From: Paramagnetospirillum marisnigri | Lineage (GTDB): Bacteria; Pseudomonadota; Alphaproteobacteria; Rhodospirillales; Magnetospirillaceae | Direction: 5' to 3' | Assembly: GCF_001650715.1 (NCBI RefSeq) | Contig: NZ_LWQT01000044.1 | Span: forward strand, 1 to 64,000 | Length of the DNA: 64,000 bases | Part shown: piece by piece, positions 13,204 to 22,759 of the stretch | How positions within the stretch are numbered: the stretch's first letter is position 1 | How the letters are laid out: each line of letters begins with the position of its first letter | Position numbers and translations under genes: made by a program | Notes under the pieces: generated by a model | The model's database searches: none | Seen by the model: the letters and a program-made list of their open reading frames with translations, nothing else | What the model was told of the DNA's origin: nothing

Positions 13204-13290
13204 AAGGGTGCTACACACGCCCGGATCGGGGGTGGCAAAAAGCGCGGATTTCCTTGCGAGGAGAAGTTGGCTGGGGCGCCAGGATTCGAA
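13204..13290. repeat. attL: 87-bp direct repeat with tRNA-Gln 3' fragment
   Basis: Matches 22621-22707 without gaps at about 80 of 87 positions. The last 26 bp (13265-13290, AGTTGGCTGGGGCGCC onward) are identical to the 3' end of tRNA-Gln, including the encoded CCA and T-loop. Past 13290 the two sequences differ, so this is a truncated tRNA copy made by integration. The 60 bp left of the core also match the inner side of the other repeat, and they carry one GCTACACA. Confidence 0.9.
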
Positions 13291-13992: not shown

Positions 13993-14018
13993 CCGGTCAT
14001 GTCATGGGTCATGACCGG
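13993..14018. repeat. GTCATGACC-type palindrome
   Basis: CCGGTCAT (13993-14000) and ATGACCGG (14011-14018) form an inverted repeat, and GGTCATGACC (14007-14016) is itself a palindrome. The same unit occurs twice as a pair elsewhere in the element (18589 and 20792). It lies just downstream of the 14037-14825 gene. Confidence 0.5.
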
Positions 14019-14036: not shown

Positions 14037-14825
14037 CTAGGGGCTACCCCAAATCCCCTTTTTCTGGCTCTTGGCCATTGCCTCCGCTTCAATCAGACGT
14101 GGCGGCGCTTGCAGACTTGTTTTGGCAAATCCTGAAAGAAGCGCTACTTCAGCCAAGTCGGCTCCATTGCGTTCCTTGGCAAAGCAAGACCATTCCTCAT
14201 TGCCTTGGGGCAGGCAATCGATAACGCCAGCGTGCGCCACGTAATCTCTAAAAGCGTTGTCGGCCTGTGCTACATTTGAGGGAACGATGCCAAGAAGCCG
14301 AACAACGGAACCATCAAAATTCAGCGTATCCGCGCGTGTCAGCACCGGCCTCCCCGAAATGGGCTTTTGCTGCAAATTTGGCCGTCTTTCCGGCTCGACG
14401 AGAGCCGGTTGGGGCTGCGCTTTTGGGACCGGCGTAGCCGTTACGCCGACAGGGGGGGGGGCTTTTCTCTCGGCCTCAATCTTAGGGGCATTATTTTTTT
14501 GCGAATTTGCGGCGGAACCGACAATTGAAGCAAGATTAAATGCGCCAACCATACCCATTATTACGGGAGATGTGAGGGCTCCAACTATGGAAAGTATTAT
14601 TCCAATGATTGACAAAACACGCCCCGTTCCTGGCTTCATCAGGCCAAAAATACCGGCAATAAATCCTATCGGGGACGTCACAATGGAAAATATAAATACA
14701 CTTATTCCGCCGAATACAATAGAAAGTATTCCGGCAACACCAACAGTAGATGCTGGCTCTTTTATGATTACAAACTGAGGCTGCTGCGGTGCAGCATTCT
14801 GCGGCTGACTAACTTCTTCGGACAT
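14037..14825 (-). CDS. Membrane protein with DUF4190-like helices and SNase-like domain
   Basis: 262 aa. Residues 26-66 and 68-105 are hydrophobic helical segments with a GLMKPGTGR turn, as in DUF4190-type proteins. A Pro/Lys-rich linker (108-165) leads to a C-terminal domain (about 178-262) resembling a staphylococcal-nuclease fold: VVRLLGI, VIDCLPQGNEEWSCFA, LAEVALLSGFA, AEAMAKSQKKGIWG. No catalytic Arg/Glu set is visible, so it is probably a non-enzymatic binding domain. ATG 14825 has a perfect GGAGG; the longer frame does not. First of a four-gene minus-strand set, counted from the left. Function unknown. Confidence 0.75.
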   Translation of the reverse strand: MSEEVSQPQNAAPQQPQFVIIKEPASTVGVAGILSIVFGGISVFIFSIVTSPIGFIAGIFGLMKPGTGRVLSIIGIILSIVGALTSPVIMGMVGAFNLASIVGSAANSQKNNAPKIEAERKAPPPVGVTATPVPKAQPQPALVEPERRPNLQQKPISGRPVLTRADTLNFDGSVVRLLGIVPSNVAQADNAFRDYVAHAGVIDCLPQGNEEWSCFAKERNGADLAEVALLSGFAKTSLQAPPRLIEAEAMAKSQKKGIWGSP

Positions 14826-14842
14826 TTTCACCTCCAAACTGC

Positions 14843-15280
14843 TTATCGCGCTATGCGCCAAATGCCTTTTCCGTTTGTTCGCGCAAATTCTTCTGCCTCA
14901 ATAAGCTGCTTTGAGGCTGATGACGTTGTTCTTGCCAAGCCGGAAAGGACAAGAACTTCAGCGAGATTGTTTCTGCCTTCAATTGCTGAACAACTCCAAC
15001 CATCGGCAGACTCGTAGCAATTCACCGCACCAACCTGCGCTAAATAGGCTTTTGACGCCGCCAACGCATCCGGAGAACTATTCATCTCTATCCCAGACAA
15101 TTGAATGGTCGTCCTCTGAACAAGGAGGGCCATGCCATCAGTCAGCATTGGATTTCCGGACACAAACCGGAATTTATCCTCCGGAGCATTGTCTGGTCCG
15201 CGATGAAAAATCGCCATGGCTCCAAGCACCCCTCCGACGGACAGGGAAAGAGCCACGGCGATCTGTAGCCATAATTTCAT
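14843..15280 (-). CDS. Anchored SNase-like small protein, paralogue of neighbour
   Basis: 145 aa. One N-terminal membrane anchor (residues 4-25, LWLQIAVALSLSVGGVLGAMAIF) and a domain that aligns with the end of the 14037-14825 product: IQLSGIEM, AVNCYESADGWSCSA, LAEVLVLSGLARTTS, LIEAEEFARTNGKGIWR. The paired Cys and the GKGIW end of the nuclease fold are kept but catalytic residues are not seen. Its stop lies 17 bp before the start of the next gene, and its ATG abuts the stop of the lipoprotein gene (15281), so it is within one operon. Periplasmic location inferred. Confidence 0.75.
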   Translation of the reverse strand: MKLWLQIAVALSLSVGGVLGAMAIFHRGPDNAPEDKFRFVSGNPMLTDGMALLVQRTTIQLSGIEMNSSPDALAASKAYLAQVGAVNCYESADGWSCSAIEGRNNLAEVLVLSGLARTTSSASKQLIEAEEFARTNGKGIWRIAR

Positions 15281-16009
15281 TTAGCCAGACGCCACCGTCC
15301 ATTTAGCGTCGGCTCCCTTACAGGCCAGCGAGACCTGCTCACTCTGTTTCCCAGATGGATCAACGATAACCTGACGAATTTGGCGGCAAGTGCGCCCATC
15401 AGCCATGACCTGAGGATTGGAAATCGGTTCCGACCACCCCCACATCCCGGAACTACCCTCCGAACGAACGGCGGGCTCAACCACCTTCCATTGGGCTTGG
15501 TTTGTCGTGCTAGGCTGGGACGTTGTTTGAGAGGGCGCCTGAGACGGGGCCTTGGCTGCACTCTTTTGCTGCTTCGTCGCGGGGGCTGTGCCGGCCGAAG
15601 ACGTTTTCGAAGTGCTGGACGTCGAGCCGGACGAATAGATCGTCGGAACAATGATTTCCTTGGAGGCCTGTGGGGCAGCTTGTGGCTGGGCATTCTGCGA
15701 GCCCCAGGTGACCTGTGTTCCGGTTGGCTGTTCTGCGGCGACTTGGTTAGTCGCGGCAACCGCCTGTTTATCATTGCAGTCAAGCAGACCGCCGATTTGA
15801 TTTCCGATAAGAGACCCCGCAGCCACACCTGCAATAGTCGCCAAAATATTGCCAGAGCCATGCCCAAACTGGTATCCGATAATTCCTCCTGCCAGGGCTC
15901 CCAAAGCAGTCCCGCCGATTTTGCAATTATCGGAGAACGCGCTGTTCATGGTTTGGCAGCCAGATAGTGCCAGGGGAGCTATCAACAAAACGGCGAAACG
16001 AGTCTTCAT
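15281..16009 (-). CDS. Glycine-zipper surface-antigen lipoprotein
   Basis: 242 aa. Signal peptide with lipobox ALSGC (residues 14-18). Residues 31-75 form a glycine-zipper 2TM segment (GTALGALAGGIIGYQFGHGSG, AAGSLIGNQIGG) typical of the rickettsial 17-kDa antigen family. A Ser/Thr/Ala-rich spacer (115-172) follows. The C-terminal 45 residues (RTCRQIRQVIVDPSGKQSEQVSLACKG) match the antigen's small beta domain with its two Cys. Expected as an outer-membrane lipoprotein. The third gene in the envelope cluster, ending exactly where the anchored SNase-like gene starts. Confidence 0.8.
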   Translation of the reverse strand: MKTRFAVLLIAPLALSGCQTMNSAFSDNCKIGGTALGALAGGIIGYQFGHGSGNILATIAGVAAGSLIGNQIGGLLDCNDKQAVAATNQVAAEQPTGTQVTWGSQNAQPQAAPQASKEIIVPTIYSSGSTSSTSKTSSAGTAPATKQQKSAAKAPSQAPSQTTSQPSTTNQAQWKVVEPAVRSEGSSGMWGWSEPISNPQVMADGRTCRQIRQVIVDPSGKQSEQVSLACKGADAKWTVASG

Positions 16010-16110
16010 GGATTGAGCTCCAGCATTAGAAATGCTCGACGAACGCGATTGTCAGCGCCGCCTGGGTGGGTTAGACACTTGGGCGCACACCAAAAGAAGC
16101 GGCGCTAGGC

Positions 16111-16650
16111 TTACCTATACTGAACGTTGATGTTTCTTCCCGTGGCGTTGATCGTTACCGGGCAGGGCCGTGCGGGAGAGTTGTTGACAAGGCAGTGATT
16201 TGGCCATTCCTGCGCGCCACCAGGATGCATTTGGATCCCAGTAATCCCGCCGCAGTCAAAAGCGCCATTGGTTGTTAATGTTCTGATTATCGACTGACCT
16301 GGCCCAATCTCCCCCATTTCAATCCATCCTTCTTGAGGCTGCCCATACTTATTTATAGGGGTGATGGCAAGGCTGCGAATATTAATGAATGAGTTGGTGT
16401 CATTTCTAATTTGGGCATTTGTTTTACACGCCATCTCGCTCCCTCCCCCAAATTTAGGGTAGGTTTCGACGTAGAACATTACCGATAGAGAACCGATGGA
16501 ATTTATCCCGGCGGGCTTCAATGACAAAGGGGTGCCAGCGACTCCACCTCCAATCGCTTGTCCAAGGATTTGCCCCAGCGGATTATTCTGCTGAGCAAAG
16601 GCGGCCACAGGCAAAGCCACGGCGATAGCGGCCAATATAAGAGACCTCAT
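16111..16650 (-). CDS. Secreted protein of unknown family
   Basis: 179 aa with a clear Sec signal peptide (MRSLILAAIAVALPVAAFA, cleavage near AFA-QQ). The mature part has four to five Cys and an all-beta look (SVMFYVETYPKFGGG, FINIRSLAITPINKYG, GQSIIRTLTTNGAFDCGG). No family recognised. ATG 16650 is preferred over 16656 because AGGGG sits eight bases in front of it. First gene of the AT-richer cluster, 101 bp before the lipoprotein gene. The set of two envelope-anchored and two exported proteins suggests surface modification of the host. Confidence 0.7.
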   Translation of the reverse strand: MRSLILAAIAVALPVAAFAQQNNPLGQILGQAIGGGVAGTPLSLKPAGINSIGSLSVMFYVETYPKFGGGSEMACKTNAQIRNDTNSFINIRSLAITPINKYGQPQEGWIEMGEIGPGQSIIRTLTTNGAFDCGGITGIQMHPGGAQEWPNHCLVNNSPARPCPVTINATGRNINVQYR

Positions 16651-16897
16651 TTGCATCACCCCTGCATAGATACCAAATTCATCGAGAAGAATGACTCGGT
16701 GTGAGGTCATTGGCAATATTCAACACCAAAAATGACTGATTTTGGAGTCAAGTTTAAGTGTTCGCCTGTAGGTTAAGTTGGGTTCTCGAGATAGTAGGGT
16801 GGCGCCGCCTTTGAGGCATTGGTCGCTAATTTTTTCATGTTGATTGTGAAAATTATCTCAGAAATACCGGAAACGACACTACGTCTCTCAAGATTGA

Positions 16898-16973: not shown

Positions 16974-18110
16974 GTGGCGATCTACTCTTTCAGCGTCAAA
17001 CCGCTTCCGGTCGGCAAGGTCGGCCCGGCATTGGCCTACCAGACTCGCCAGCCGATGCGACTGGATGGCGAAACTTTCCGGCCCTCCAAGACCGGTGGCT
17101 TGATAGCCGAGGGCGTCGTGTGGCCGCCGGGCGTTTCCGGCGACCTGATCGTGGGCGGGCGAGATGCCCTATGGGCCGCCGTGCTGGACGGCGAGCGCGT
17201 TCGCAAGCGCGGGCCGCGACAAGGCGACATCCGGCGACGGGCCGTGGCGGGTCGCACGGCCATCGCGGCTCTTCCGCATGAACTGTCCGCCGCCCAGCGC
17301 CATACGCTGGTGGAGGAATTCTCACGGGAGATCGCGGACAGATACGGGTGCGCCGTTGATTACGCGCTCCATGCTCCTGATGCCGCCGGAGACCACCGCA
17401 ACCATCATGCCCACATCGCCCTGACCGAACGGGTAATCTGCGGCGATGGAACCGGCCCGAAAATAAGAGCTTTCGGCGGTAGCGACCGAGCCGAGGAACT
17501 GCGTCGGATACGACAGGCGTGGGAAGACTGCTGCAACCGCCATCTCGCACGCGCCGGGGTCGTGGATCGGATCGACGCCCGGTCTTTGGCGGCGCAGGGT
17601 ATCGCACGACGCCCCACCCGGCACCGTGGCCCCGGACAGACCGCTATCGCCCGCAAGCGCCCGGATGTGTCGTGGGCGGTGGCCATGGTGCCCCACGACA
17701 GGCGAGCCATGCGACACGACTCCCGCACCGCCGTCTTGGCGCTCGCCCGCGCCGTCCGGCTCGCCGATGACGAAGCCTCTCGGCTGGCCGCATGGAAGGC
17801 ATTGCTCGCCAACTCCCGCGACGCCATCAAAATGGGTCTCGCCCAAGGCGACGCGCTGGAACTGGCTAAATGGGCGCAGCGAACTGAGGCCCCAGCGGAC
17901 GGTCCAAAACCTCCGGCACGGTCCTCCGGCACTCGTCTCGGCCGACACGTCGGCCATGTGCTGGCTGAAGCCGCCAAGCCAATCAGCGATGCGCGTGTCG
18001 GAAAGATCGAGGCCGAGAAAGACCAGGCAGACGGACTGGACCCAATCCTTACCGCACTGACTGCCGCGAGCGTGGAGGCGCGGCGGCTCCTCCGCCATCG
18101 GGCACGGTAA
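16974..18110 (+). CDS. mobA: MobA/MobL relaxase (MOBQ type)
   Basis: 378 aa. Nicks oriT and leads the strand during conjugative mobilization. The N-terminus MAIYSFSVKPL matches the MobA family start MAIYHL(T/S)xK. Tyr22 aligns with the nicking Tyr of RSF1010 MobA. The metal-binding three-His motif is HRNHHAHI at residues 141-148. The C-terminal 150 residues are helical, with no primase domain, so this is shorter than full MobA. It needs a helper conjugation system; none is encoded here. An oriT-like site lies 41 bp upstream. It overlaps the end of the convergent 18049-18492 gene by 62 bp. Confidence 0.9.
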   Translation: MAIYSFSVKPLPVGKVGPALAYQTRQPMRLDGETFRPSKTGGLIAEGVVWPPGVSGDLIVGGRDALWAAVLDGERVRKRGPRQGDIRRRAVAGRTAIAALPHELSAAQRHTLVEEFSREIADRYGCAVDYALHAPDAAGDHRNHHAHIALTERVICGDGTGPKIRAFGGSDRAEELRRIRQAWEDCCNRHLARAGVVDRIDARSLAAQGIARRPTRHRGPGQTAIARKRPDVSWAVAMVPHDRRAMRHDSRTAVLALARAVRLADDEASRLAAWKALLANSRDAIKMGLAQGDALELAKWAQRTEAPADGPKPPARSSGTRLGRHVGHVLAEAAKPISDARVGKIEAEKDQADGLDPILTALTAASVEARRLLRHRAR

Positions 18111-18588: not shown

Positions 18589-18609
18589 GTCATGACCCCA
18601 GTCATGACC
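18589..18609. repeat. Paired GTCATGACC palindromic repeat (copy 1)
   Basis: Two GTCATGACC units separated by CCA, 12-bp period; the first is within the palindrome GGTCATGACC. The identical 21-bp arrangement recurs at 20792-20812. It lies in the 300-bp divergent intergenic region 18493-18792, so it may be an operator or replication-initiator site. Confidence 0.55.
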
Positions 18610-18792: not shown

Positions 18793-19314
18793 ATGAACAG
18801 CACTGTCACCGCAGAAATGCATCTGGAACTCGGCACAATGAGCACCCCAGGAGCCGCTGACGACACATCCGCGAACCTGCCCCTGCATATCGCCGAGACC
18901 ATAGAGGAGGCTGAGGCCATGGGGCCGTCCTCGGTCTTGGTCGATGACGCGCTCGACGATGACCGCCTCGCCCGAGGCGGGGTGGTTCCGGTAAAGGCGT
19001 ATCTCCGGACGAAGGCAAGCGCGGAAGCGCTTCGCCAACGACGAAAACGCGAGCGGCAGGCGGCCAAGGGGACCAAGCAGGTCGCGGTTGCGGCTCCGTC
19101 TGATGACGCCAGCCGGGACGCCATCAAGGTCTTCGCCGCCGCCATGCGCGACAGCGTTCTCGCCCCCGATACTGTCCGGCGGCTGGTCGAGGCTGATCCC
19201 GCCTTCGTTCAACAGGCTATTACCTTGGAGCCGGTCATGGTCATGCGTCTGGGCGAGGTTCTGCGCCATGGAGGCATCCGCGCCCGCATGGTTCGCGGCC
19301 TTCTCCAAGCCTGA
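18793..19314 (+). CDS. Hypothetical protein of the mobile element
   Basis: 173 aa, start ATG with CGGAG upstream. Acidic first half, then a very basic helical segment (residues 77-97, SAEALRQRRKRERQAAKG) that could bind nucleic acid, then a helical C-terminus (TVRRLVEADPAFVQQAIT). No family recognised. It is divergent from the 18049-18492 gene and precedes the replication ATPase gene. A regulatory or accessory replication role is plausible from position and charge only. Confidence 0.6.
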   Translation: MNSTVTAEMHLELGTMSTPGAADDTSANLPLHIAETIEEAEAMGPSSVLVDDALDDDRLARGGVVPVKAYLRTKASAEALRQRRKRERQAAKGTKQVAVAAPSDDASRDAIKVFAAAMRDSVLAPDTVRRLVEADPAFVQQAITLEPVMVMRLGEVLRHGGIRARMVRGLLQA

Positions 19315-19368: not shown

Positions 19369-19567
19369 CTCTCTTATTGGCTGCTGACGCTCTGCTGACG
19401 CATCAGAATGACCAGAAACCCCAGGACTTCCGCGGGTATAAGCCCAGATTACCGACGCTGACGCCACCCCTCAAAAATAATTCGCGCCGGGGGCTGGGCG
19501 GCTGCTGACATGGCCCTATGTCGACGTCTGCGGGCACTTCCGTCCGCAACGAATGGGGGACGCCAAA

Positions 19568-20848
19568 ATGAGGAAGAAGACGCAGACCAAGGTCGAGAAA
19601 GACGACCCAAGGCAGTTGGACCTTATCGCGCTGATCGAGGCCGGCGGCCTGACCGGCGAACGCCGGGAAGCGCTCCGGGGGATACTCGCCACCACGGCCA
19701 CGCCAAGGACATGGCGCGGCGACACCATTATCCCGCCGGGTTCATTGCTGGACAGGGTGGTCGATCTGTTTGCGCGCACCACCGATTTCCCCCTCGAACT
19801 CCCGGCGTTTGTCGTGCTCCATTCCTTGGCGGCATATCTGCTGGACAAGGGCGTTGAGGCCAGGGTGGCAGGAAGCCGGGTTCAGCCTGACCTGTGGTCG
19901 GTGCTGCTTGCCCCAAGCGGGGCGGGCAAGACCAAGACGGTCTCGGTCATTGAGCGGGTCATGCCCCTGCGGCTATTCCCGGAAGCGGCATCCGCAGCGA
20001 AGTTCATGGAGGCCCTTGCCGAAAACAACCGCGCGGCATGGTTTCAAGATGAGTGGGCGCAGACCTTGAAACGGATCGAGACCCAGACCTATTGTGAGGA
20101 ACTCAGGGAATACCTGCTCAAGCTGCACGACGGCAAGCCACTGGCACGGCGCACCGTCAAGGGGAGCATTGAAATCAATGATCCGGCCTTGGTCATCCTT
20201 GGCACCACCGTCCATGACACATTCCTCGACAACGTATCGGCAGAGTCGATGCTTGACGGCTTCTCCCAGCGCTTCGGCTTCATCGTTGGCGAGGCCGATC
20301 CGAACCGGACGCCGGACATGTTTCCGATTTACCGGGTCGAGGAATCGGACAACCTAGCACCGCTTCATATCGCGTGGAAAGCCATCGCCGCCCTGCCGCT
20401 GCACCCTGAATACGTCGTCTCGCCAGAGGCGGAGGCGGCATTCGCGAATGGATTTCAGCACCAGTTCCAGCAGAATCGGGAAATGCCTTCATCGTTTTTT
20501 CGCCGGGTCATGTGGCGGGCGTTCAAATACGCCTTGGTCTATCACGTCCTGCTGGGCAAGGCCGATCCGATTGTCGATGCCGAGGACATCGGCTGGGCAG
20601 TTCGCGTCGCCGCCATGCACTTGGCCGACGCCCGGCGACTGCTGGACGGCTACCGGCTGACGGAGTTGGAGGCACTGATCGTCAAGGCCGAGACGCTTCA
20701 AGCCCGCCTTGGCCGCCGTCCGACCAAGCGCGAGTTGGTCTCCGGCGTCCGCGGAATTCGCAACGGGGCCATGGCGAACTTTGTGCTAGAAGTCATGACC
20801 CCAGTCATGACCGGCAACGCTTCCAACGTTCAGAGGGTGGCGGCGTAA
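19568..20848 (+). CDS. DUF3987-type replication ATPase/helicase
   Basis: 426 aa. The Walker A motif APSGAGKT lies at about residues 114-122, in an N-terminal context (PAFVVLHSLAAYLLDKG) typical of DUF3987 proteins of plasmids and satellites, which are thought to help replicate the excised element. Further DUF3987-like features are WFQDEWAQTL (Walker B-like) and GFSQRFGFIVGEADPNRTPDM. ATG 19568 is preferred because GGGGGA precedes it by seven bases; an ATG at 19553 is in frame. The end of the gene carries the second copy of the GTCATGACC pair. Confidence 0.75.
   Translation: MRKKTQTKVEKDDPRQLDLIALIEAGGLTGERREALRGILATTATPRTWRGDTIIPPGSLLDRVVDLFARTTDFPLELPAFVVLHSLAAYLLDKGVEARVAGSRVQPDLWSVLLAPSGAGKTKTVSVIERVMPLRLFPEAASAAKFMEALAENNRAAWFQDEWAQTLKRIETQTYCEELREYLLKLHDGKPLARRTVKGSIEINDPALVILGTTVHDTFLDNVSAESMLDGFSQRFGFIVGEADPNRTPDMFPIYRVEESDNLAPLHIAWKAIAALPLHPEYVVSPEAEAAFANGFQHQFQQNREMPSSFFRRVMWRAFKYALVYHVLLGKADPIVDAEDIGWAVRVAAMHLADARRLLDGYRLTELEALIVKAETLQARLGRRPTKRELVSGVRGIRNGAMANFVLEVMTPVMTGNASNVQRVAA
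20792..20812. repeat. Paired GTCATGACC palindromic repeat (copy 2)
   Basis: Same two units with CCA spacer as at 18589-18609, here inside the end of the DUF3987 gene where it encodes VMTPVMT. Exact conservation of non-coding and coding copies argues for a binding site. Confidence 0.5.
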
Positions 20849-20879
20849 GCCGCCCCACTCTGCGGCTCCTACGTTTTTT
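20848..20879 (+). terminator. Weak terminator between convergent genes
   Basis: AGCCGC (20848-20853) pairs with GCGGCT (20862-20867); six T residues follow at 20874-20879 after a six-base gap. It overlaps the end of the convergent integrase gene. Confidence 0.4.
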
Positions 20880-22584
20880 CAATGAGCCCAAGGTCGAGGC
20901 CGTAGGCGGCGTAGTCCAACCTCTCGATCTGCTCAGCAAGGGCGGCAATACCGTAATCGGTGTAGTCGTTCGTTTGCTGTGCCCGTTCGAAAATCGGTAA
21001 TTCTTCGTCGTGTCCGGCAAGTGCCGCGACCGTCAGGGCGTCGACATTAGCCCGCGTCCTCATGCTGGTGATGAAGGTGCGCCGCAGGCTGTGAAAGTCC
21101 ATCAACGGCTCGTAGAGTTCGCAGTGCCGCCGATAGTCGGTGAAGTGTGTGCTGTACGTATCGCCCAACTTCTTCATCCGCCCTGTCGGCCTCAACTCGG
21201 GCCAGATGCGCTGCCCCGCCTTCTTATGGTCGAACAGGTCGAGGAAGCCGAACCCCGCCAGCACCGAATGGACTGGCACCCGTCGAATGCTGTTGGCCGT
21301 CTTGACGCGCCGCTCCCCCTCGCCGTGGATGTGGATGAAGCGAAAGCCGCTGGAATCGGCGACGAGGTCTTCGTGGTGCAGTTGGGCCAGTTCTTCCAGC
21401 CGGGCGCCGGTCCAGAGAGCCGTAATCGGTAGCCACCAATAAGCATCACGATAGATGTGGTCGCCTTCCTTGTGCCGCTTTGTGAAATCCTCCGGCCTGC
21501 TCCCCGTTCCCTGCCAGATGGGTGTGGCGAACAAAAGGTTGAGTTGCTCCATAGGCCACGACTTGCGCTTTTGAGCCGAAGGCACGCCTTTGCTCAATTT
21601 GATGCCATCAAACATCTCGTCGATGGCGTCGCTGGTCGTGAAGTTGAGATGCCGCCGCGCCGTGTTGAAGAAGCCCTTCACATGCTGGACATGCTTGCCG
21701 ATGGTTGTTGCGCTCAAAGTCATCGGCCCGCCCGCCTTCTCCGACATGCGGGCAGCCTTCGCAAACAGATCTTCGATGGAAGCGGATTTGTCGCTCGGCG
21801 ATTTCCCTAGCGATCTTGGGAGGCGTTCTAGTATCAGGACATAATTGAGGATATCCGTCCGCCCGTAATCCGCCAGACGTTTGTCGCCGGTGATCCGGGC
21901 GAACAGGGAAATGAAATTCACAATATGGCGTTGGCTGTCATCAGCCAGCCGCTTCTCCTTGGTGTAGGTATCGGTCAGAAACTGCATCACCGTGGGCGTG
22001 GTGGCGCTATGACGCGGCAGGCCGAGCCGACGGCTCAGCGCGGCGACAATCGCCTCGCCCTGTCCGACGATAGCTGAACCTTCCAGTTCGTCTTTCTGTC
22101 GTTGCAGGTCGTCTCGGTCTCGTTGCAGGCCAACCACGCCGTCGCGCACTTGCTCCAACTGTTTAAGTCTATCTTCGGAAACTGTTTCGGCTAAATGGCC
22201 GAGCAGAACCCCGCATTGCTTTCCCAACTCGCGGGCAGCCTTTTCAGCCTTCTCGCGTCTTCCCTGTTCCTGCTCCATTTCCCGAACGGCAGCGGTGGCG
22301 AGGTCAAACAAATCCCCGATGGCGGCTTCGCGGTCGCTGGGACTCATTGCCGCTAGTTGAGCGAGCCATTCCTCCTTGGTGTCCGCCATCCCTCTCAACC
22401 CCTCGAAGATATCCAGGACGCGGCCATATAGGCGATGCGCACGCCACTTGGCCTTCCTTGGACAGGCCGTCGCCAATGAGCGATGGATTTCCCCCCGTCC
22501 GATGACAGGGACCAAATCAGAGGGCACGCGGCAGCGCAAGTGGTAGATGCCGCCCCGGCGCAGGGTATGCTGGACAACCGGCAT
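20869..22584 (-). CDS. int: Site-specific tyrosine integrase (DUF6538 N-terminus)
   Basis: 571 aa. The N-terminus (MPVVQHTLRRGGIYHLRCRVP) is the DUF6538 domain common in tRNA-targeting integrases. Residues 90-190 form a coiled-coil-rich segment. The catalytic domain has Arg in TGARLEEL (near 390), HSLRRTF (near 497), GHDE (near 522) and the Tyr in TNDYTDYG (near 540). It starts 101 bp from the 3' end of tRNA-Gln and reads away from it, the usual layout. It probably catalyses integration and, with an unseen factor, excision of the element. No excisionase gene was recognised. Confidence 0.93.
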   Translation of the reverse strand: MPVVQHTLRRGGIYHLRCRVPSDLVPVIGRGEIHRSLATACPRKAKWRAHRLYGRVLDIFEGLRGMADTKEEWLAQLAAMSPSDREAAIGDLFDLATAAVREMEQEQGRREKAEKAARELGKQCGVLLGHLAETVSEDRLKQLEQVRDGVVGLQRDRDDLQRQKDELEGSAIVGQGEAIVAALSRRLGLPRHSATTPTVMQFLTDTYTKEKRLADDSQRHIVNFISLFARITGDKRLADYGRTDILNYVLILERLPRSLGKSPSDKSASIEDLFAKAARMSEKAGGPMTLSATTIGKHVQHVKGFFNTARRHLNFTTSDAIDEMFDGIKLSKGVPSAQKRKSWPMEQLNLLFATPIWQGTGSRPEDFTKRHKEGDHIYRDAYWWLPITALWTGARLEELAQLHHEDLVADSSGFRFIHIHGEGERRVKTANSIRRVPVHSVLAGFGFLDLFDHKKAGQRIWPELRPTGRMKKLGDTYSTHFTDYRRHCELYEPLMDFHSLRRTFITSMRTRANVDALTVAALAGHDEELPIFERAQQTNDYTDYGIAALAEQIERLDYAAYGLDLGLIEKT

Positions 22585-22613: not shown

Positions 22614-22634
22614 GCTACACAAGGGTGCTACACA
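22614..22634 (+). repeat. Paired GCTACACA repeats (right arm-type sites)
   Basis: GCTACACA at 22614-22621 and 22627-22634, spacing 13 bp, identical in layout to the left pair. They sit between the integrase start and the core, as arm-type integrase sites do. Confidence 0.6.
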
Positions 22635-22707
22635 CGCCCGGATCGGGGGTGGCGAAAGGCGCGGATTTCCTTGTGAGAGAGAGTTGGCTGGGGCGCCAGG
22701 ATTCGAA
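22621..22707. repeat. attR: 87-bp direct repeat ending in intact tRNA-Gln
   Basis: Partner of 13204-13290. The 26-bp perfect core (22682-22707) is the 3' end of the complete tRNA-Gln gene, so the element restores the tRNA on insertion. Confidence 0.9.
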
Positions 22708-22759
22708 CCTGGGAATGCCGGTACCAAAAACCGGTGCCTTACCGCTTGGCGACGCCCCA
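22685..22759 (-). tRNA. tRNA-Gln(TTG)
   Basis: Complete minus-strand tRNA: acceptor TGGGGCG/CGCCCCA, anticodon stem CCGGT/ACCGG with loop TTTTGGT giving TTG, T arm CCAGG-TTCGAAT-CCTGG and encoded CCA at 22685-22687. Integration target of the element on its left. Confidence 0.95.

Follow-up and report, generated by a model that had tools for sequence, protein, structure and literature searches.

The first 64,000 nucleotides of contig NZ_LWQT01000044.1 of Paramagnetospirillum marisnigri (the window, which is the start of a contig in a 4.62-Mb genome) carry four neighboring genes, W1 to W4. The products of W1 and W2 end in a domain that we name dSN, for dead SNase-fold domain, a name that also covers its relatives in other genomes. 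The four genes lie within ~9.5 kb of DNA bounded by 87-nt direct repeats, and by its anatomy this stretch is an integrative mobilizable element (IME), with an integrase, attachment (att) repeats at a tRNA gene, and a relaxase. An earlier note on this DNA had read the genes as AT-richer, same-strand cargo. All four do lie on the minus strand, with a G+C content of 50–57% versus 65–68% in the flanks, and the att repeats at tRNA-Gln, the recombinase, and the relaxase bear out the cargo status. The recombinase has a Pfam Phage_integrase match of 20.6 bits, under the cut-off of 27.1, and the relaxase matches the NCBIfam MobQ model at 8.5e-32, yet under that model's own cut-off. No protein of a type IV secretion system was noticed on reading the open reading frames (ORFs) of the 13.2–22.7 kb region, not all of which were profiled.

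Features of the element in the window and of one related locus (G643, stretch L128)
Feature	Position	Strand	Remarks
Left att-like repeat	13204..13290	+	87 nt; 92% identical to direct repeat 22621-22707
W1	14037..14825	-	262 aa; 2-3 N-terminal hydrophobic stretches, linker, C-terminal dSN (14040-14360)
W2	14843..15280	-	145 aa; single N-terminal hydrophobic stretch, C-terminal dSN (14846-15163)
W3	15281..16009	-	242 aa; Gly-zipper lipoprotein (lipobox), conserved C-terminal domain (about 15284-15496)
W4	16111..16656	-	181 aa; signal-peptide-like N-terminus, 4 Cys
MobA/MobL relaxase	16974..18110	+	PF03389 2e-30
173-aa ORF of the element	18793..19314	+	no PHROG or Pfam match up to E 0.01
Primase/helicase-like DUF3987 protein	19553..20848	+	PF13148 3.3e-15; phrog_3022 DNA primase 3.1e-19
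Tyrosine recombinase, DUF6538 N-terminus	20869..22584	-	PF20172 1.4e-17; phrog_1 integrase 1.3e-17
Right att-like repeat	22621..22707	+	runs into 3' end of tRNA-Gln
tRNA-Gln(TTG), integration target	22685..22759	-	ARAGORN
SH3-dSN gene, G643	L128 6159-7484		
Gly-zipper protein gene, G643	L128 7494-8078		

W3, W2, and W1 form a tight operon in which W3 and W2 abut (0 nt) and 17 nt separate W2 from W1; the end of W4 lies 101 nt upstream of W3. The view that all four products are exported or membrane-bound, with W4 as a signal-peptide protein and W3 as a glycine-zipper lipoprotein, fits their hydrophobic stretches, signal-like starts, and lipobox. The N-terminus of W2 may be either a membrane anchor or a cleaved signal. 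W3 has the lipobox LSGC at residues 15–18 and passes the cut-off for the PF05433 Gly-zipper 2TM family (31.7 bits; cut-off 24.2) but not that for DUF5061, the 17-kDa common-antigen family (19.2 bits; cut-off 23.6). The label DUF4190-like, which the note had given to W1, had to be dropped at 10.3 bits against a cut-off of 35. For W4, there was no Pfam or NCBIfam match up to E=1.

The C-terminal domains of W1 and W2 (~105 residues) are homologous, as had been claimed (38% identity over 116 aa; BLASTP 4e-20 in a single comparison), and in a search of the whole genome (2.5e-15) they were the sole two matches up to E 0.1. The nuclease-like ending described earlier as GKGIW corresponds to KGIW near the C-terminal end of both proteins, and the paired cysteines are the only two in each, at positions that are Cys in all 19 aligned dSN domains. 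W2 scored 19.4 bits against the SNase family PF00565, under the cut-off of 21, and W1 had no PF00565 match in Pfam. Three comparisons indicate that dSN has an SNase fold, an oligonucleotide/oligosaccharide-binding (OB) barrel plus helices. First, a sequence-profile search of the PDB with the 19 dSN domains found SND1 (6.5e-5) and staphylococcal nuclease (2e-4). Second, the best AlphaFold model, that of the W2 domain (predicted local distance difference test score, pLDDT, 84.0; predicted template-modeling score 0.76; AlphaFold input alignments were small, 4 and 3 rows), gave 29 Foldseek matches at E<=0.001, all to SND1 or staphylococcal nuclease, with the best at 4.8e-5. Third, structural comparison aligned the same model to SND1 with a Z score of 11.4 and a root-mean-square deviation of 2.8 Å over 108 of 113 residues, and to SNase with a Z score of 11.2. 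The relation to the SNase fold, which the note had put to a structure test, came through that test.

The fold appears to have been kept and the active site lost. As a yardstick we aligned 18 alphaproteobacterial SNase-like rows out of 23 loci, chosen by a DxDT-type or DTL motif plus G(I/L/V/M)W; the yardstick counts for DGDT and GxW are therefore inflated, whereas D40, E43, R87, and the loop Cys played no part in the choice. With residue numbers that we take to be those of staphylococcal nuclease, the second Asp of DGDT (D21) is present in 1 of 19 dSN rows versus 17 of 18 SNase-like rows, D40 in 2 of 19 versus 17 of 18, and E43 in 2 of 19 versus 17 of 18. The R87 column holds Arg in no dSN row (18 of the 19 have gaps) and in 11 of the 18 SNase-like rows. 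By contrast, the core Cys pair is invariant in both sets (19/19 and 18/18), and the GxA glycine and the G and W of G(I/V)W occur in every dSN row. The 19-row set leaves out G051 and G060 (weak, with a stop in frame), the later finds G798, G805, G820, and G921, the weaker G651 and G417 (stretches L132 and L133), and matches that we read as ordinary SNases; G and L numbers are our handles. On these alignments dSN is apparently catalytically dead, having lost catalytic residues and loops while keeping two Cys, in line with the earlier statement that no catalytic set is present. A partial exception is the R35 column, where Arg persists in 6 of 19 rows, W1 among them. This Arg and the SNase fold itself could be taken to mean that dSN is still a periplasmic nuclease that cuts incoming DNA, but the near-complete loss of the other four residues makes this scarcely credible.

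The pairing of a W3-type lipoprotein with dSN recurs in other genomes. These surveys used genome samples that are draws, flanks of limited length, and many heuristically called ORFs. A profile of the W3 C-terminal domain matched 6 of 297 genomes of the order at E<1e-20, P. marisnigri included, with the next match at 1e-7. In five of the six (P. marisnigri, G008, G016, G009, and G136), a dSN gene lies directly beside the lipoprotein gene, and a further pairing is found on plasmid p02 of Azospirillum sp. TSH58. There are thus six operons in three genera: that of the window, three in genomes of the same genus (G008, G016, and G009, the last being Paramagnetospirillum caucaseum SO-1), one in the Rhodospirillales metagenome-assembled genome G136, and one in TSH58. 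The sixth lipoprotein genome, G020, contains two separate broken lipoprotein pieces (L168 6264-7304 and L169 6551-6787, on two contigs) and no dSN match; one piece stands beside genes that resemble type III CRISPR by reading. Among plasmids, the dSN and lipoprotein queries matched TSH58 only. A YccF-dSN query matched 18 plasmid records, and among the matches listed (the best 15 of 18) those outside TSH58 align to the YccF part. No relative was found in three scans of viral contigs, and no relative of W2, the only protein queried, was found among phages.

Within these operons, dSN stands behind different N-terminal modules. The window, G008, G016, and TSH58 each encode two dSN proteins with differing N-termini; in G009 and in G136 we saw a single one. 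The G016 proteins have NERD (2.8e-11) and YccF (3.2e-16) N-termini, and G008 has the same pair by homology; G009 has YccF, TSH58 has GDPD (4.5e-15) plus a protein without a Pfam match, and G136 has a multi-pass protein. Of the 104 dSN residues, 86 are identical between the NERD and YccF proteins of G016, whose N-terminal parts give a single weak match near the transmembrane segment and linker. Because 31 of the 86 identical residues are encoded by different codons, the dSN copy in G016 appears to be old and kept by selection; recent gene conversion between the two copies is disfavored on the same grounds.

A six-frame search with a profile of the whole lipoprotein covered the stretches fetched around 15 dSN loci and gave a match at seven: all six operons plus G643, which belongs to a different family within the class. 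In G643, an exported Gly-zipper protein starts 9 nt after an SH3-dSN gene; it has a signal-peptide-like start, no lipobox that we could see, and a C-terminus related to that of W3 (1.6e-24; GWAMPV...ADGKSCR). Gly-zipper proteins are common (42 of 60 genomes have a match at E<=1e-6), and so this lone case is suggestive only. One might still suppose that W1–W4 are a chance collection of unrelated exported cargo genes, and W4 is indeed clearly separable from the rest. For W1–W3, however, recurrence of the lipoprotein-dSN pairing in five other loci, across three genera in all, and the Gly-zipper neighbor in a seventh locus disfavor that explanation, which we regard as very improbable.

The expectation that the gene set would be found together elsewhere held only in part: the lipoprotein and dSN genes occur together at five other loci, and W4 is missing there. 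In tblastn and six-frame phmmer searches of these five loci and extra flanks, W4 was found in none, and the same search recovered 7 of 7 known W4 loci as a positive control. W4 has a distribution separate from that of the lipoprotein-dSN set, and we rejected it as a fourth component. Its closest relative (G054, L037 6731-7033; 38% identity, the matching region containing a stop) has a DUF6538 recombinase fragment and tRNA-Gln(CTG) as neighbors, and W4 relatives thus also ride a tRNA-Gln island.

The stronger dSN matches in our samples stay within one class, and dSN occurs in several protein architectures. Matches at E<=1e-13 were found in 10 of 297 genomes of the order, P. marisnigri included; a class sample of 385 genomes added three others under 1e-20 (G643, G331, and G576); and in a phylum sample of 349 genomes, all nine with E<=1e-8, P. 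marisnigri among them, belong to the same class. A tree of the 19 domains splits 12 versus 7 with support of 96/99. The larger group holds W1, W2, G008, G016, G009, G136, TSH58, G140, and G154, and 10 of its 12 rows come from operons with the lipoprotein, those of G140 and G154 being the two that do not. The smaller group includes PBP1A-type synthases (G262 and G576), caspase (G003), SH3_3 (G643), and LCCL (G331) proteins, and G007. Since the G643 dSN falls in this smaller group, both parts of the tree contain dSN genes with a Gly-zipper neighbor. The PBP1A-type synthases with a dSN tail are encoded at L091 3752-6004 and L131 7664-10138. In genus g329, five genomes have long dSN frames of 694–892 aa, of which that of G576 alone was checked as a PBP.

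The architectures of the smaller group, together with the GDPD protein that carries one dSN of the larger group, would also suit ordinary envelope upkeep, in which dSN binds the cell wall or another periplasmic component and the operon strengthens or organizes the envelope with no role in defense or exclusion. Against upkeep, 10 of the 12 rows in the window's tree group come from operons with one particular lipoprotein, which indicates a specific partner, and carriage on mobile elements would be unusual for upkeep genes. We consider upkeep a tentative alternative, improbable but the most serious of those weighed here.

With confidence only just above even, we propose instead that W3-W2-W1 is a trans-envelope complex carried by the IME and that dSN is a portable periplasmic docking domain. 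W3 would be lipidated, probably at the outer membrane, and would expose its conserved C-terminal domain to the periplasm. Inner-membrane anchors would let W2 and W1 place their dead dSN domains there as well, although W2 may alternatively be a cleaved, soluble protein. Braced by a putative single disulfide, dSN would connect differing modules to one shared partner in the envelope, for which the C-terminal domain of the Gly-zipper protein is the likeliest candidate, and the element might benefit through an altered envelope of its host. A constant dSN behind changing modules, mostly accompanied by the same lipoprotein, fits a docking domain. The G643 neighbor raises our confidence in docking slightly, from even to the level given above. 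The proposal would make a dead SNase-fold domain a portable extracytoplasmic part of envelope proteins, PBP1A-type synthases included, and a Gly-zipper lipoprotein operon its companion on mobile elements. It could also explain nuclease-like C-terminal tails of alphaproteobacterial envelope proteins. The titles and abstract openings of top-ranked literature matches describe no dSN-type domain, which is weak evidence of novelty.

Several observations weigh against docking to W3. First, the putative dSN-W3 contact is argued from guilt by association. Second, no such Gly-zipper protein was found in the fetched stretch at 8 of the 15 dSN loci (G007, G140, G154, G262, G003, G331, and two of G576). 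The lipoprotein-less G140 and G154 fall in the tree group of W1 and W2 and pull our confidence in docking down. These loci suggest that the ligand may be more general, and dSN on PBP1A-type and other proteins without a Gly-zipper partner points to the cell wall as an alternative. Third, the other four of five AlphaFold dSN models scored low (pLDDT 49.0–42.2), and the W3 model was poor overall (47.4) and unsuitable for a structure search. Fourth, 11 of 16 inner branches of the dSN tree are open, with long branches for W1, W2, G154, and G003. Finally, a MobA/MobL-type relaxase, the only family searched for, adjoins the operon in just two of six loci, and so a relaxase beside the operon is not the rule.

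As a separate observation, TSH58 (L098 11143-14941) and G140 (L090 1121-4496) have in common a second lipoprotein-like protein and an 880–970-aa membrane protein; the TSH58 copy of the latter has a GDPD domain and ends in dSN, and the G140 copy is without the dSN end.

We also compared the tRNA-Gln site of the window across the genus. The 4.5-kb stretch to the right of the IME was matched in 17 of 17 same-genus genomes searched, P. marisnigri included, and in 12 of these the match begins inside its first 25 bases, which lie at the tRNA end. The left side of the site was fetched for six genomes. In G007 it carries a relaxase piece and a recombinase with 68% identity over 570 residues, and in G008 a distant DUF6538 recombinase. 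G013 and G016 carry integrases of other kinds, and a second att-like copy lies 14.5 kb away in G013 and 11.4 kb away in G016; in the stretches fetched from G014 and G011, no integrase was noticed. The lipoprotein-dSN operons themselves occupy differing sites. In G136, an integrase and a MobA/MobL relaxase flank the operon, and tRNA-Gln(CTG) is ~12 kb along the contig; a search for exact 14-mer att repeats of this element found none. In G016, tRNA-Gly and a fragment similar to the N-terminal part of an integrase (21.6 bits; cut-off 27) lie near the operon, the TSH58 operon is ~3 kb from a serine recombinase, and the G009 operon is near recA with no tRNA beside it. Within the IME of the window, the repeat GTCATGACCCCAGTCATGACC occurs at 13996-14016, 18589-18609, and 20792-20812 (two identical copies and one at 76%); these are possible candidates for replication or transfer-origin repeats.

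This setting bears on what the complex might do for its element. The likeliest single role that we can name, although a doubtful one and somewhat less probable than upkeep, is exclusion, in which the lipoprotein and the inner-membrane dSN proteins would together lower the host's capacity to receive related conjugative or mobilizable elements. Known exclusion pairs combine an outer-membrane surface-exclusion factor with an inner-membrane entry-exclusion factor. The operon is IME cargo, and a relaxase stands next to it both in the window and in G136; a VirB5-like gene comes next in G136 (PF07996, 24.9 bits, just over the cut-off of 24.7); a VirB6-like reading of the multi-pass ORF after that gene was confirmed by no Pfam or NCBIfam model. 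The G013 island at the same tRNA-Gln (L208 1941-14866) joins envelope genes to a TrbL/VirB6 gene: besides TrbL/VirB6 and a relaxase, it encodes LemA, a 520-aa protein, and an OmpA-domain protein that matches Gly-zipper weakly. There is also a precedent: Sfx, the outer-membrane surface-exclusion factor of IncC plasmids, is encoded on putative IMEs as well, at four kinds of site, one of which is a tRNA 3' end (PMC11493245). The Sfx precedent and the G013 island are what make exclusion attractive. Counting against it, Pfam gave no TraT or other exclusion family for W1–W4 up to E=1, the relaxase is adjacent at only the two loci just named, and the G009 operon, near recA, has no tRNA beside it.

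A defensive role appears less probable still. The note had suggested that the complex perhaps blocks phage or DNA entry and that its duplicated domains bind a shared ligand; either may be so. One version is an anti-phage surface barrier or sensor, with dSN as the constant periplasmic sensor and NERD, GDPD, caspase, and membrane modules as swappable effectors. A constant C-terminal domain behind variable N-terminal modules would suit such a system; among PADLOC models, one that bears NERD matches the NERD protein (2.8e-16) and a caspase model matches the caspase protein (1.2e-9). However, W1, W2, and W4 match no PADLOC 2.0 model up to E 0.01, and the one match of W3 (PD-T4-6, 0.0027) covers just its Gly-zipper end and a low-complexity linker. 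PBP1A-type synthases, moreover, are not effectors, and the phage and viral-contig searches described above came back empty. We judge this version quite unlikely. A broader and marginally less improbable version is an envelope guard, in which the lipoprotein and the dSN-tagged inner-membrane proteins would form one gate; dSN would sense what state the lipoprotein, or else incoming transfer or phage machinery, is in, and interchangeable NERD, GDPD, YccF, and membrane modules would act on the cell or on entering DNA.

The operon can be compared with several known systems. Like Sfx of IncC plasmids and IMEs (PMC11493245), W3 is a predicted outer-membrane factor encoded on an IME. TraS and TraT of F-like plasmids offer a parallel for the idea of an inner-membrane protein paired with an outer-membrane lipoprotein; W3 differs in having no Pfam TraT match up to E=1. 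With the 17-kDa antigen and other Gly-zipper lipoproteins (PF05433; DUF5061 weakly), W3 shares a lipobox and a Gly-zipper 2TM domain, but it has a C-terminal domain of its own, SGxWGWxEP...GRxCR, the within-group matches of which stand well apart from the next relatives. dSN resembles SNase/thermonuclease (PF00565) in fold, core strands and helices, GxA, and G(I/V)W, and its Cys pair is that of alphaproteobacterial SNase-like proteins; unlike these enzymes, it is without the second Asp of DGDT, IDAPE, the Cys-containing loop, and DRYGR. Finally, the SN-type domains of SND1 (Tudor-SN) are the top structural matches of dSN. SND1 is a human protein in which SN domains are repeated and joined to a Tudor domain, unlike dSN, and its degenerate SN repeats serve binding.

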